Of a stretch of 64,000 nt of DNA, positions 4,038 to 17,284 are shown piece by piece. The stretch is taken from the NCBI RefSeq assembly GCF_012027305.1, contig NZ_SNUF01000001.1, positions 124,001 to 188,000 on the forward strand, written 5' to 3'. Position 1 is the first letter of the stretch. Each line of letters starts with the position of its first letter. The translations under genes and the position numbers were made by a program. The DNA is from Thermococcus sp. MAR1. Lineage in GTDB: Archaea; Methanobacteriota_B; Thermococci; Thermococcales; Thermococcaceae. The notes below the pieces were generated by a model. The model was given only the letters and a program-made list of their open reading frames with translations, was not told where the DNA came from and searched no databases.

Positions 4038-7000
4038 ATGAGGATCGAGGAACTCCCGGTTGACGAACGCGTGAAGAGGGTCATTATCGAGAGGGGCATA
4101 GAGGAGCTTTATCCGCCGCAGGCTGAAGCTTTGAAGAGCGGCGTCCTAGAGGGAAAAAACCTCGTTCTGGCTATCCCCACCGCGAGCGGGAAGACCCTCG
4201 TGAGCGAGATAGTTATGGTGGACAAGCTCCTTCGCGAGGGAGGAAAGGCCGTATATCTTGTTCCGCTCAAGGCTCTGGCTGAAGAGAAGTACCGGGAGTT
4301 CAAAGTATGGGAAGCCCTCGGTCTTCGCGTCGCGGCCACCACCGGTGACTACGACTCGACCGACGAGTGGCTCGGGAGGTACGACATAATCATCGCCACC
4401 TCCGAGAAGTTTGACTCCCTTTTGAGGCACGGCTCGAACTGGATAAGGGACGTCAAGCTTGTCGTTGCCGACGAGGTTCACCTCATAGGCTCCTACGACC
4501 GTGGTGCAACCCTTGAGATGATACTCAGCCACATGCTTGGAAAGGCCCAGATTTTAGCTTTAAGCGCCACCGTTGGAAACGCCGAGGAGCTGGCAGAGTG
4601 GCTCAACGCAGAGCTCGTCGTGAGCGACTGGCGGCCTGTTGAACTGAGGAAGGGCGTCTTTCACCTAGGGGAGCTCATCTGGGAGGATGGCAAAATAGAG
4701 CGCTACCCCGAGAACTGGGAGAGTCTGGCAATTGACGCGGTGAAGAGAGGCAAGCAGGCACTCGTCTTTGTGAACACTCGCCGCTCGGCCGAGAAGGAGG
4801 CCGTCTCCCTATCTTCAAAGATAGCAAAACTCCTGACCAAGCCTGAGACAAGGCAGCTGAGTGAGCTGATTGCCTCCATCGAGGACAACCCTACAACGGA
4901 GAAGCTCAAAAAGGCCATCAGGGGCGGTGTGGCCTTTCACCACGCCGGCCTGAGCAGGGCGGAGAGGACGATGATAGAGGACGCCTTCAGGGAGGGCTTG
5001 ATTAAGGTGATAACCGCCACTCCAACGCTGTGCATGCATCCAGAAACCCCGGTAATCACAAAAAACGGCGTTAAAAAAGTAAGCGAGCTTGGAGGGGGGG
5101 ATGAAGTTCTAACCCACAGCGGTCATTTTAAGAAAGTTATAACACCTCTAAGAAGACCCCACCAGGGTAAAATGCTCGTAATCAAAGCGATGGGAACCGT
5201 TCCGGTGAGGGTAACGCCAGAACACATGGTCTGGGTTGTTAAGAGAATCCGTCATAAGTCACACTATTCAGACGGCAGGCAGGTGATATGGTGGGAGTTT
5301 GAGGGGCCGGAGTGGATGACCGCTCAGGAGCTCAAGGAGCTCGTTGAGAGCAACAGGGACGAGAAGGTATCTTACATGCTCCTCCAACCGATCCCGGAGC
5401 CAAAGATTACAGTGGATAGGATTCCTCTGCAGAAACCAGTTTATATCTCAAACCAGTTCGGAAAAACGGATAAATTGCACTCCTCGGTACAGAGAACACC
5501 CAAATTCCTTCCTCTAAACTTCGAAACTGCCAGACTAGTAGGTCTTTGGATTGCTGAAGGCTCAACATCCAAAACGGGAGCTATAAACTTTGCCATTGGT
5601 TCCCATGAAAACGAGATTACAGAATTCCTTGCACAAACCATCAAAAAGTATTTCCCATACGCTAACGTCGTTGTGAGAGATCATGAACGGAATAGAAGAG
5701 TCGTCCGCTTCTGCAACAGGAGATTTGCCGAGTGGCTCAGAGAAAATATTGGACACAGAGCACATGAGAAGAGAATTCCCGATGTTCTTCTCTTTAACGA
5801 GAACCGGGAAGTCAGGCTTGGCCTGGTTAGGGGTCTTATAGAAGGGGACGGCTATATACGAAGAGACAACAGCAGGAGGGCCAACTACATAAGTTACACC
5901 ACAGTTTCGCCTACCTTGGCCTATGGGCTTCAGCTCCTCCTTGGCTCTCTCGGCTACGTTTCATCTGTTTCGAGGAGTATAAGAGAGCCAGGAATAGGAA
6001 AGAACCGGAAACCAATCTATGAAGTCAAAATCAGCGGACGCTCGTACTATGAACTACTCGAAGAACTTGGTCTTGAGATTCCACAAAAGGGCAATAGAAC
6101 CTACAACGTGAACACGATCTGGAACGGCTATCTTCTCTTCAAAGTTCGCTCCGTTGAGGAGGAATTCTACGATGGTGACGTCTATAATCTTGAGGTTGAA
6201 GACGACGAGAGTTACAGCGTTGGCTTCATAGTCCACAACTCGGCTGGTGTGAATTTACCCTCGTTCAGAGTAATAATCCGCGACACCAAGCGCTACGCCG
6301 GCTTCGGCTGGACTGACATCCCCGTCCTCGAAATCCAGCAGATGATGGGTCGCGCCGGAAGGCCGAAGTACGACAGGGTTGGCGAGGCCATCATCGTGGC
6401 GAGAACCGAAGACCCAAAGAGGCTGATGGAGAGGTACATCCACGGTAAGCCGGAAAAGCTGTTCTCGATGCTCGCCAACGAGCAGGCCTTCAGGAGTCAG
6501 GTTCTGGCTTTGATAACGAACTTCGGCGTTTCAAACTTCAGGGAGCTGATAAGCTTCCTTGAGAAGACCTTCTACTTCCACCAGAGGAAGGACACGAGCT
6601 CGATAGAGTACAAGGCGAAGGACATAGTCTACTTCCTTATCGAAAACGAGTTCGTGGACATGGACATGAACGACCGCTTCATAGCCCTTCCCTTCGGAAA
6701 GCGCACGTCTCAGCTCTACATCGACCCTCTGACGGCGAAGAAGTTCAAGGACGCCTTTCCGAAGCTTGAAAGAAACCCCAACCCCTTCGGAATCTTCCAG
6801 CTGATAGCCTCGACGCCAGACATGGCAACGTTGAACGCCCGGAGGAGGGAAATGGAGGACTACCTTGATTTGGCCTACGAGTTCGAGGATATGCTTTACA
6901 TCAACATCCCATACTACGAGGACTACCGGTTCCAGACCTTCTTGGGCGAAGTAAAGACCGCGAAAATCCTCCTTGACTGGATAAACGAGGTTCCTGAGGT

Positions 7001-7427
7001 GAGGATATACGAGACCTACAGCATTGACCCCGGCGACTTATACCGGATTCTGGAGCTCGCGGACTGGCTGATGTACTCGCTCATTGAACTCTACAAGCTC
7101 TTTGAGCCTGAGAAAGATGTGCTGAGCTACCTGAGAGACCTGCACCTCAGGCTGAGGCATGGCGTGAGGGAAGAACTCCTCGAACTGGTTCGGCTGCCCA
7201 ACATAGGGAGAAAGAGAGCCCGGGCATTGTACAACGCAGGCTTCAGGACTCAGGAGGATATAGTGCGCGCAAAGGTAAGGGACCTCCTGGAGGTTGAGGG
7301 CATTGGAATGAAGGTGGTTGAGGGACTGTTCAGGCACTTTGGAGTGGAGATGCCCAAAGGGGCTAAGAATGGCTCTAAGAAGTCACAAAAAGCCCGGAAG
7401 GGAACCCTCGATGACTTTCTCAAGTAA
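4038..7427 (+). CDS. hel308: ATP-dependent DNA helicase Hel308 (Hjm) precursor with intein
   Basis: This is an 1129-aa precursor that should splice to a mature helicase of about 726 aa, the normal Hel308 length. Hel308 is a 3'-5' superfamily 2 helicase that acts on stalled replication forks. Visible motifs are Walker A IPTASGKT (residues 46-53), DEVH (145-148), motif III LSATV, motif IV LVFVNTRR and motif VI QQMMGRAGRP (about 767-776). The C-terminal region carries helix-hairpin-helix-like repeats (N-I-G-R-K-R-A-R-A-L and V-E-G-I-G). The C-terminal T-L-D-D-F-L-K tail resembles a PIP/RPA-contact type end. The intein (residues 332-734) splits motif V between T-P-T-L and S-A-G-V-N-L, so helicase activity should need splicing. 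It is transcribed from the shared TATA at about 3996-4006. Confidence 0.97.
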   Translation: MRIEELPVDERVKRVIIERGIEELYPPQAEALKSGVLEGKNLVLAIPTASGKTLVSEIVMVDKLLREGGKAVYLVPLKALAEEKYREFKVWEALGLRVAATTGDYDSTDEWLGRYDIIIATSEKFDSLLRHGSNWIRDVKLVVADEVHLIGSYDRGATLEMILSHMLGKAQILALSATVGNAEELAEWLNAELVVSDWRPVELRKGVFHLGELIWEDGKIERYPENWESLAIDAVKRGKQALVFVNTRRSAEKEAVSLSSKIAKLLTKPETRQLSELIASIEDNPTTEKLKKAIRGGVAFHHAGLSRAERTMIEDAFREGLIKVITATPTLCMHPETPVITKNGVKKVSELGGGDEVLTHSGHFKKVITPLRRPHQGKMLVIKAMGTVPVRVTPEHMVWVVKRIRHKSHYSDGRQVIWWEFEGPEWMTAQELKELVESNRDEKVSYMLLQPIPEPKITVDRIPLQKPVYISNQFGKTDKLHSSVQRTPKFLPLNFETARLVGLWIAEGSTSKTGAINFAIGSHENEITEFLAQTIKKYFPYANVVVRDHERNRRVVRFCNRRFAEWLRENIGHRAHEKRIPDVLLFNENREVRLGLVRGLIEGDGYIRRDNSRRANYISYTTVSPTLAYGLQLLLGSLGYVSSVSRSIREPGIGKNRKPIYEVKISGRSYYELLEELGLEIPQKGNRTYNVNTIWNGYLLFKVRSVEEEFYDGDVYNLEVEDDESYSVGFIVHNSAGVNLPSFRVIIRDTKRYAGFGWTDIPVLEIQQMMGRAGRPKYDRVGEAIIVARTEDPKRLMERYIHGKPEKLFSMLANEQAFRSQVLALITNFGVSNFRELISFLEKTFYFHQRKDTSSIEYKAKDIVYFLIENEFVDMDMNDRFIALPFGKRTSQLYIDPLTAKKFKDAFPKLERNPNPFGIFQLIASTPDMATLNARRREMEDYLDLAYEFEDMLYINIPYYEDYRFQTFLGEVKTAKILLDWINEVPEVRIYETYSIDPGDLYRILELADWLMYSLIELYKLFEPEKDVLSYLRDLHLRLRHGVREELLELVRLPNIGRKRARALYNAGFRTQEDIVRAKVRDLLEVEGIGMKVVEGLFRHFGVEMPKGAKNGSKKSQKARKGTLDDFLK
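5031..6239 (+). mobile_element. Intein with LAGLIDADG homing endonuclease in hel308
   Basis: In-frame insertion of 403 codons. The first residue is Cys (C-M-H-P-E-T-P). Block B is T-P-E-H. The block F/G end is S-V-G-F-I-V-H-N followed by Ser as the first C-extein residue, so all splicing residues are intact. Two dodecapeptide motifs are present, LVGLWIAEG (residues 500-508) and LVRGLIEGDG (596-605), each with its acidic residue (E and D), so the homing endonuclease may be active. The segment is visibly more AT-rich than the flanking helicase, as expected of a mobile insertion. It sits in a conserved nucleic-acid-contact motif, typical of intein sites. Confidence 0.96.
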
Positions 7428-9310: not shown

Positions 9311-9776
9311 CATCACGATGGGAGTCCTTAACTTTTGCTTTTGTCGCTTTTCAGATTTGTTCTGGACAATTGAAGCCTTAATTTTGCCAGGGAAATCGAT
9401 TTTCGCTCTTTAGTTATTGTCACTTTTTGTTCCATTTTCTCGGATATTATGTAACGAAATTTTTTCGAAGTTTGGAATATGGCCGTGGTCTCGCCCCTTT
9501 CAGTCTAAACCCTATCAAAACTGTTTTTTCCTGGCTTTAGCTGGCTTACAGGCCATTTTTCGGGCTTTAAAGACCTTCTAAGTCCAGGGAAATCCCGTGA
9601 GCATCTGTGTTCATCAAGTTTTTTAGGCCCGGTAATCTTGGCTTGGGCTCCTTAAAGCGTTCCAGGGGTTCTGTTTTGGACGCCCCAATAGCTTCTTTTA
9701 CGGCGGTTTCCAGAAAAGCTTAAATATTGGAAGTGGTTTAGGGCTTTATTGGGCAAATGGAGGGAAATTCCCGCCT
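9311..9776 (+). other. CRISPR leader region (non-coding)
   Basis: This is 466 nt without a credible gene between the RNA-binding protein and the first CRISPR repeat. It is AT-rich with many T-runs, as expected for a Thermococcales leader. The array orientation (ATTGAAAG end on the right, decayed repeats on the right) places the leader on this side. Confidence 0.75.
9716..9728 (+). promoter_or_regulatory. Probable CRISPR leader promoter
   Basis: AAGCTTAAATATT contains a BRE-like AAGC and the TATA box TTAAATA (9720-9726). A start site about 25 nt downstream (about 9750) would lie just before the first repeat at 9777. Confidence 0.6.
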
Positions 9777-10568
9777 GTTGCAATAAGACTCTAGGAGAAT
9801 TGAAAGGGCGGTTGAGCGCGTAGGTCTCAGAAACCACCCGGAAAGTTGCAATAAGACTCTAGGAGAATTGAAAGCTCTGAAGCCATCTCGTAGCAGAGCA
9901 TGAGCACGACAAGTTGCAATAAGACTCTAGGAGAATTGAAAGTTCTATATGACAGCCCCGCTGAAGCCATCTCGTAGCCGAGTTGCAATAAGACTCTAGG
10001 AGAATTGAAAGACCTTCATTTTTCACAACCTCCTTAAAGTTGTCCTCGTGTTGCAATAAGACTCTAGGAGAATTGAAAGCTGTACAACAAACTCATATGG
10101 GAGTGGTATGTGTGCGAGTTGCAATAAGACTCTAGGAGAATTGAAAGCAGCCTTGACCCCAGTTCCGGCGACAGCACGAGGTAGTGTTGCAATAAGACTC
10201 TAGGAGAATTGAAAGCATAATCGGACAGATCGGCAGGCTCAACCCCGGTGAGGTTGCAATAAGACTCTAGGAGAATTGAAAGGCATGTACTTCGAAGTGT
10301 CCTCCCCCGGCGGAGCCAAAGTTGCAATAAGACTCTAGGAGAATTGAAAGGAGATCGACACTTTTGACCACTTCTCGCCAGCTGACCTTTCAAGTTGCAA
10401 TAAGACTCTAGGAGAATTGAAAGCTGGAAATGAAGGGCTACAAAAAGTAGGGCTCTACGGTTGCAATAAGACTCTAGGAGAATTTTGGGGGTTCTCATGC
10501 ATTTAAGTCCGAGGGGGTGTGGGGGACGGAACGTCCCCCCGCAATAAGACTCCACGAGGATTAAAAAG
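9777..10568 (+). CRISPR. CRISPR array, ten intact 30-bp repeats plus two decayed repeats
   Basis: The 30-bp repeat begins GTTGCAATAAGACTC and ends GAGAATTGAAAG. Intact copies start at 9777, 9845, 9913, 9982, 10050, 10118, 10186, 10253, 10321 and 10394, and look identical. An eleventh copy at 10460 keeps only the first 25 bases (to 10484). A strongly mutated copy lies at 10539-10568. Spacers are 38, 38, 39, 38, 38, 38, 37, 38, 43 and 36 nt. The terminal ATTGAAAG is the 8-nt crRNA 5' tag known from Pyrococcus, so transcription should run left to right. No cas gene lies in the window, so processing and interference proteins must be encoded elsewhere. Spacers 2 and 3 share an 18-nt identical core. 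Confidence 0.98.
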
Positions 10569-16078: not shown

Positions 16079-17284
16079 TTAGGCCGCATCGCCGAGCTCC
16101 TCCACTGGGAGCTTCATCCTCGAGACCGCTATAAGGGTCAGGATTCCTATGAGCGGCATGAGGGCCAGTTCTCCCAGGGCCAGGCCGGTGCTCTGTCTCG
16201 CGAGTACGTCCGTTATCGTTGGAGCTATGGCGTTGGCCGAGTTGGAGATGAGACCAAGGGCAAAGCTGGCCTTCGGAAAGATGTTCCTTGGATACGTGGC
16301 CGGGGCACTGGTCCAAAATGCTGGCCCGGTTCCCTGGAGAGCTCCAATGAGGATCACCGACGCGAGGGCAAGGGTGTAGTTGCCGGCGAGCATGGCCCTG
16401 CCGTAGATCAGCAGGCCGATAAAGGCAACCGCGTAGGAGAATATCATGACCTGCACGATGGCCTTGAAGAGGCCCCTAGCGTTCGGGTTCTTCTTGGATA
16501 GCATGTAGCCGACGTAGCCCATGCCTATGCTCCAGAGTGCCTTGGATATGTTGAGGCTCGTGCTGAGCGTTGCCACGTGTTCCTTCGTCCACCCGATTTC
16601 ATAGCCGAGGGATGCGGAGAACCCTATGATGGTGAATATGACCCAGAGGGCCGGGAAGAATGTGAAGCCGAGCACCCAGGTGAAGGGCATCTTCCAGACG
16701 CTTGCCTTTTCGGTCCCCTCGGTCTTGTGGATTATCTCAAAGTCCTCAACGAAGAACCACCAGAGGGAGAGAACCGCGTACATTATGAGGACCGTGACCC
16801 AGAAACCGCCCTTCCACCCAAGAGCCTCGACGGCGTACTTGGCGCTCATGCTTCCAAACACACCGCCCCAGAAGATGCCAGAGAGGATTATACCCTTGGC
16901 GAAGGGTCTTTCAGCCACAAAGAAATGTGCTATCTGAGTGCTGAAGAGGGGCACGAGCGTGACGACGAAACCCTGGATGAACCTGAGGAAGACGACGACG
17001 TACCAGTTGGGGGCAAGTGGAATGAGCGCCTGCGCTATCGCCGCCCAGCTGAGCGCTATGGCAACGCTCTTCTTGAAGCTTCCCTCGTATATCCTGGTGT
17101 GGCCGAGAAGGAACGCTATGAACAAACCAAAGACGTACGCTATGTGCTGCCATTCGTACTCCGCGCTGCTTATCCCGAAGTGGGCGATTATATCCGGCTT
17201 TGCGACGGCCATCATGGTCAGGGTTCCGAAGCCGGCCGTCATGACCAACGTGTCAAGCAGGACTGAACTCCACCGTTTGTCCAT
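16079..17284 (-). CDS. MFS transporter
   Basis: 401 aa with about twelve membrane helices in two halves separated by a cytoplasmic loop near residues 185-200. It matches the major facilitator layout. The loop after helix 2 reads L-G-H-T-R-I-Y-E-G-S-F-K-K-S, the place of the usual G-x-x-x-D-R-x-G-R-R motif. The substrate cannot be assigned. It follows the Gdt1-like gene by 12 nt and is probably in an operon with it and the aminotransferase. Confidence 0.85.
   Translation of the reverse strand: MDKRWSSVLLDTLVMTAGFGTLTMMAVAKPDIIAHFGISSAEYEWQHIAYVFGLFIAFLLGHTRIYEGSFKKSVAIALSWAAIAQALIPLAPNWYVVVFLRFIQGFVVTLVPLFSTQIAHFFVAERPFAKGIILSGIFWGGVFGSMSAKYAVEALGWKGGFWVTVLIMYAVLSLWWFFVEDFEIIHKTEGTEKASVWKMPFTWVLGFTFFPALWVIFTIIGFSASLGYEIGWTKEHVATLSTSLNISKALWSIGMGYVGYMLSKKNPNARGLFKAIVQVMIFSYAVAFIGLLIYGRAMLAGNYTLALASVILIGALQGTGPAFWTSAPATYPRNIFPKASFALGLISNSANAIAPTITDVLARQSTGLALGELALMPLIGILTLIAVSRMKLPVEELGDAA

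Follow-up and report, generated by a model that had tools for sequence, protein, structure and literature searches.

Neighboring CRISPR Spacers with Overlapping Targets on a pT26-2-Family Plasmid in Thermococcus sp. MAR1

Introduction

Plasmids of the pT26-2 family are a recurrent target of CRISPR immunity in Thermococcales, with spacers against them having been reported in 30% of the genomes of this order (Badel et al., 2019, PMC6972569). Overlapping spacers have also been described, and Erdmann and Garrett (2012, PMC3468723) called them rare in the natural loci of Sulfolobus; primed adaptation has been studied by experiment in the type I-B systems of Pyrococcus furiosus and Haloarcula hispanica. 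Spacers against the pT26-2 family, overlapping spacers and priming are all already known, and the spacer pair described here is a neat but ordinary example of the way CRISPR immunity renews its memory. In the portions available of the literature on overlapping protospacers or spacers, and on pT26-2 with CRISPR in Thermococcales, no report of this pair was found.

The pair lies in a CRISPR array of Thermococcus sp. MAR1, within a stretch of 64,000 nucleotides (positions 124,001 to 188,000 of contig NZ_SNUF01000001.1, forward strand), referred to as the window, whose positions are used throughout. Upstream of the array, on the plus strand at 4038-7427, the window holds an ORF of 1129 aa, which we take to be a helicase resembling Hel308 that is interrupted by an intein-like stretch.

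Array A and the Overlapping Spacers

Array A (9777..10485, plus strand) is composed of ten full 30-nt repeats (GTTGCAATAAGACTCTAGGAGAATTGAAAG), a truncated eleventh and ten spacers. It belongs to the Thermococcales GTTNCAATAAGACT...GAATTGAAA repeat type, having a conserved leader, regular 30-nt repeats and spacers that measure about 36-43 nt. The leader end (9657..9776, plus strand) lies to the left of the array, as judged by eye from a comparison with the other two arrays of MAR1, B and C: the 70 nt that precede the first repeat are in large part shared by all three. It follows that spacer 1 is the newest and that spacer 3 is older than spacer 2. In the trailer (10486-10566), the truncated last repeat is followed by a hairpin (GGGGGACGGAACGTCCCCC) and then by a degenerate copy of the repeat; apart from array A, this conserved motif occurs in 12 of 133 array loci (L092, L104 and ten others).

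Spacer 2 (9875..9912, plus strand, 38 nt) and spacer 3 (9943..9981, plus strand, 39 nt) share the 18-nt sequence CTGAAGCCATCTCGTAGC, at 9877-9894 and 9961-9978 respectively; the spacer coordinates given in the first-pass annotation of the window are correct. The shared sequence leaves 2 nt of spacer 2 to its left and 3 nt of spacer 3 to its right. The mismatches said to flank it are real (9876 T vs 9960 G; 9895 A vs 9979 C), but the likeness continues past them, with 21 of 23 positions identical on the same strand, which is the full overlap possible at an offset of 16 nt. The overlap thus spans nt 1-23 of spacer 2 (9875..9897, plus strand) and nt 17-39 of spacer 3 (9959..9981, plus strand). 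When the 36 spacers of this genome were shuffled 200 times, a shared run of at least 13 nt arose in 3 of the 200 shuffles and the longest was 14 nt; the exact run of 18 nt, together with the end-to-end overlap, is therefore not attributable to chance.

The Target Element

Among 94 family genomes searched, just one other (G052) contained the exact 18-nt sequence. When two positions of the 23-nt pattern were left free, it retrieved a single genome_contigs record, JALSON010000293.1 (8,764 nt), with the same size and match place as L014, a contig (G052:C293) of another Thermococcaceae MAG. Both spacers match one contiguous place on L014, in keeping with the proposal that two protospacers overlap on the same strand and come from elements that are related but differ in sequence. 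Spacer 2 matches positions 261-298 at 36 of 38 nt, with CCA directly upstream, and spacer 3 matches 245-283 at 33 of 39 nt, including all 23 nt of the part common with spacer 2; at both mismatches of spacer 2, L014 carries the letters of spacer 3. Outside the overlap, L014 agrees with spacer 2 throughout its tail (15/15) and with the left part of spacer 3 at 10 of 16 positions, the other six having diverged. As spacer 2, spacer 3 and L014 all differ, at least three alleles of the site are visible. In the register of spacer 3, L014 has AAG and not CCN, and scans that included genome_contigs and viral_contigs did not find the left part of the spacer 3 protospacer or its PAM. The likeness of spacer 3 to the source of spacer 2 is for this reason gauged at 23 of its 39 positions only, 21 of them being identical. 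One ORF of L014 carries both overlapping matches, with a PAM at spacer 2 only.

L014 represents the left end of an integrated element akin to pT26-2, where an integrase and ORFs of 62, 58 and 117 aa occur in order, reproducing the integrase and t26-2 to t26-4 gene order that marks the left end of the family. The 117-aa ORF is 81% identical to t26-4, and the contig stops inside a t26-5-like gene. In blastn comparisons, L014 matched pT26-2 at 73.8% identity over 43% of the query and also matched pGE2; no phage record was matched. For the seven core genes of the pT26-2 family (t26-5, 6, 7, 11, 13, 14, 15), G052 has a t26-14 homologue (43% identity) on a contig other than L014. A virus or a plasmid had been suggested as the source; the target is a plasmid and not a virus, and the viral_contigs records gave no match in exact scans with 18-mers and 21-mers, in one scan with a 22-mer with a free base, or in a protein-based scan with the t26-4-like protein. 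It is very probable that spacers 2 and 3 are directed against one ORF of a pT26-2-family plasmid, in two alleles.

Eight further genomes (G003, G050, G055, G066, G074, G077, G080, G086) contain the 18-mer with one or two mismatches, and were rejected as targets because the full spacers have at least 11 mismatches there. L006 (G066) was likewise rejected as a plasmid locus, a membrane-protein ORF adjoining a ferredoxin-like ORF being seen there by eye. With the whole of array A as the query, blastn against phage and plasmid records returned just the repeat, in pTN3, and weak chance matches. In pTN3 (KF527230.1, about 16360-16477; L013 5002-5119), which has a capsid gene, a Thermococcales CRISPR repeat is accompanied by a stretch the size of a spacer and by one or two degenerate repeats; this may be a mini-CRISPR array of the kind that Sulfolobales viruses carry. 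The spacer-sized stretch has no match in any fetched locus (best 14/36 mismatches).

A Small Membrane ORF and Other Spacers At or Near It

The target ORF (MDVTMIPLAFGLGIFAFVVLMLGYEMASAWLSWRSSRR) has 38 codons, encodes a membrane protein and is located on the minus strand of L014 (347-231), between t26-4 and t26-5. The peptide Y-E-M-A-S, which had been read from the shared part in reverse, belongs to the frame of this ORF: L014 gives ...VVLMLGYEMASAWLSWRSSRR*, spacer 2 VVLMLCYEMASE and spacer 3 GYEMASAGLSYR. The frame is open in both spacers, which alone constitutes moderate evidence, given that further reverse frames are also open. Five of the 11 base differences between the spacers and L014 are synonymous, comprising 3/3 in a spacer of G014, 2/6 in spacer 3 and 0/2 in spacer 2. 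ORFs of similar size occur in the same place in several other elements, the tblastn scores for a protein so short being weak, and pT26-2 itself (L071) has a small, unannotated membrane ORF between t26-4 and t26-5, at 1994-2092.

Other genomes also carry spacers on or beside this ORF. The G014 spacer, of 41 nt, matches the same strand of L014 at 38 of 41 positions with CCG upstream, its first 16 nt overlapping the tail of spacer 2. A spacer of G026 exactly matches another element's copy on or beside the ORF, and weaker matches nearby have been found for G028 and G042. An uptake hot spot at the ORF is not claimed: since it was spacers 2 and 3 that led to the choice of L014, the local density is partly a matter of ascertainment, and when matches to L014 are left out, three spacers remain nearby and the bin is not clearly denser.

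Two side observations concern the same genomes. In G026, spacer 7 of L220, an array whose repeat differs (GTTCCAGTAGGACAGAATTGTGTGGAAAG), is a 36/36 match, with CCA upstream, to the region of the t26-4 gene in an integrated element. In G014, spacers 15 and 31 of L104 and spacers 8 and 9 of L105 fall on one strand within about 450 nt of the plasmid-family map (10.0-10.5 kb from t26-4).

Spacer Overlaps and Neighboring Spacers in Related Genomes

Leader-repeat junctions were located in 61 of the 94 family genomes. Of the 131 stretches fetched, 130 follow these junctions, three that sat at contig ends having been skipped, and one was added. Combined with the three arrays of the MAR1 genome, they yielded 137 arrays with three or more repeats, holding 3,137 spacers (3,082 distinct per genome) from 57 genomes. 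Partial overlaps within a genome, of at least 15 nt and at least 80% identity, amounted to 14 rows, of which nine were retained after rearrangement and low complexity were removed. The rows left out were four from G087 L216, where a 55-nt spacer was paired with copies of a duplicated spacer, and one of low complexity from G072 (L174/L175). In L216 one spacer is repeated several times and the 55-nt spacer has the same ending, a sign of array rearrangement. Among the nine clean overlaps, six of which are on opposite strands, spacers 2 and 3 of array A are the sole neighboring pair (3,000 neighboring pairs in all), the other eight being non-adjacent; spacers 4 and 5 of G087 L216, among the rows set aside, are also neighbors.

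These spacers were also matched to 20 pT26-2-like stretches. At most 20% mismatch, 92 spacers matched, 62 of them with CCN upstream, and at most 25% the figures were 128 and 76; reversed spacers, used as a control, gave no match at either level. Neighboring pairs with both spacers on the plasmid family numbered 12, against 5.54 expected when spacers are moved among array positions within a genome and their targets kept fixed. Ten of these pairs were on the same strand (2.97 expected). Five lay within 250 nt of each other (0.42 expected), a number reached in none of 2000 permutations, these distances being approximate because the coordinates come from different reference elements. Without array A, there were 11 such pairs (5.39 expected), four within 250 nt (0.35) and nine on the same strand (2.79). 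When neighbors are compared with non-neighbors, the same strand was shared by 10/12 vs 101/192 pairs at 20% mismatch, a clear excess, and by 15/24 vs 179/345 at 25%, where no clear excess is left. The results were computed at 15, 20 and 25% mismatch, matches between 20 and 25% being weaker evidence, and at 15% one spacer alone of the array A pair passes. Priming predicts that new spacers come from near the priming target; the distance part of this prediction is robustly borne out by these data and the strand bias more weakly. Since targets stay in place in the permutation, the clustering of neighbors is not produced by plasmid hot sites alone.

Arrays and Cas Loci of the MAR1 Genome

Arrays A, B and C have an identical repeat. 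Besides spacers 2 and 3 of array A, the pT26-2 family is matched by spacers 13 (33/36, CCA upstream) and 14 (30/37, CCG upstream) of array C. Spacers 10 and 11 of array B (L091) match the far end of L086 weakly, at 26/36 and 27/35; the two sites share a strand and are separated by about 100 nt. The genome has no t26-4 region, its sole matches being the spacers themselves, and t26-14 has a weak partial match only (E 2.8e-4, 81 residues). Solid homologues of t26-14 were counted by hand in 26 of the 94 genomes, from rows with E below 1e-20.

Three cas1 genes have been identified. The first, at C1:515476-516294 beside array B, belongs to a Cst-type I-B locus with Cas1, Cas4, Cas3, Cas5b, Cas7b (Cst2), Cas8b (Cst1) and Cas6; the second is near Cas3, Cas5 and Cas8b genes of another I-B type, and the third is beside Cmr3, Cmr4, Cmr6, Cas10 and Cas6. 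Since array B shares its repeat with array A, the Cst-type locus is assumed to serve array A, at a distance of 380 kb.

Origin of the Spacer Pair

The spacer pair probably records that the cell met the plasmid twice. Our preferred explanation, held with a modest degree of confidence, is that the two spacers are memories of one ORF in two plasmid alleles, with spacer 2 gained by primed or interference-driven adaptation. Spacer 3, the older, would have been taken first from one allele. A later plasmid variant, mismatched to spacer 3, may still have been recognized by the type I effector loaded with the spacer 3 crRNA, upon which Cas3 would open and degrade the DNA adjoining the target, and Cas1-Cas2-Cas4 could take up as spacer 2 a nearby fragment flanked by CCN, 16 nt away on the same strand. 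Whether the spacer 3 crRNA did trigger this uptake we consider an even question. Primed adaptation, already put forward in the first-pass annotation, fits the data and draws statistical support from neighboring spacers in other genomes; for the pair itself it is a matter of interpretation. What supports priming is the clustering of neighbors on the plasmid family, together with the presence of type I-B cas genes next to array B, whose repeat is that of array A. Such clustering would also result from one DNA fragment sampled in a single encounter, an origin disfavored for spacers 2 and 3 because their alleles differ.

Two independent naive acquisitions, at different times and from different plasmid variants, through chance or a preferred uptake site and with no priming, are a less probable but serious alternative. 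The spacers of G014 (overlapping spacer 2 on the same strand), G026, G028 and G042 on or beside the same ORF are consistent with it, as are the overlapping spacers in non-adjacent positions of other genomes. This alternative is kept because the protospacer and PAM of spacer 3 were not found, and it is weakened by the permutation with fixed targets, where hot sites alone do not explain the clustered neighbors, and by the part that ascertainment through L014 plays in the local spacer density at the ORF. A further possibility, escape and re-immunization at one site, is unlikely: a variant changed inside the spacer 3 target would have been sampled again, the two changed bases being the plasmid's answer to targeting. 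Position 9876 is the second base after the spacer 2 PAM, and with the base at 9895 the PAM of the overlapping G014 spacer would read CAG instead of CCG. It is more doubtful still that one encounter with a mixed plasmid population supplied both spacers in quick succession; they are neighbors in the array and both near its leader, yet this scenario alone leaves the 16-nt offset on one strand unexplained and the sequence gives no dating of the two uptake events. Duplication or recombination inside the array, or an assembly error, that copied part of a spacer is very improbable, in spite of partial duplications known elsewhere (e.g. G087 L216 spacers 4-7 and 13), as the unique parts of spacers 2 and 3 are collinear in an external element (15/15; 10/16) with the reading frame kept, and the repeats and spacer lengths of array A are regular.

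Comparison with Known Systems

Read as the product of priming, the pair records two successive steps of immunity to a named plasmid family, and it draws attention to a small membrane ORF that is unannotated in pT26-2. The survey adds evidence from natural genomes that neighboring spacers in Thermococcaceae often come from neighboring places on one plasmid family, as priming predicts. The survey of Badel et al. (2019, PMC6972569) addressed the same target family and host order; in its available portions, it tallies presence per genome, without overlapping pairs, alleles or neighbor clustering. Uptake in Sulfolobus cultures, in the available part of that study (Erdmann and Garrett, 2012, PMC3468723), likewise involved a CCN motif and overlapping protospacers on a plasmid and, unlike the pair in array A, many new spacers across a culture. 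The primed adaptation of P. furiosus and H. hispanica, as far as the available accounts of those type I-B systems extend, is alike in the Cas3-containing type I system, the Cst-type effector, the CCN 5' of the protospacer, and what seems an imperfect older spacer with a newer one close by on the same strand. Those systems are known from experiments, whereas in Thermococcus sp. MAR1 the process is read from a natural array, and here the protospacers overlap.
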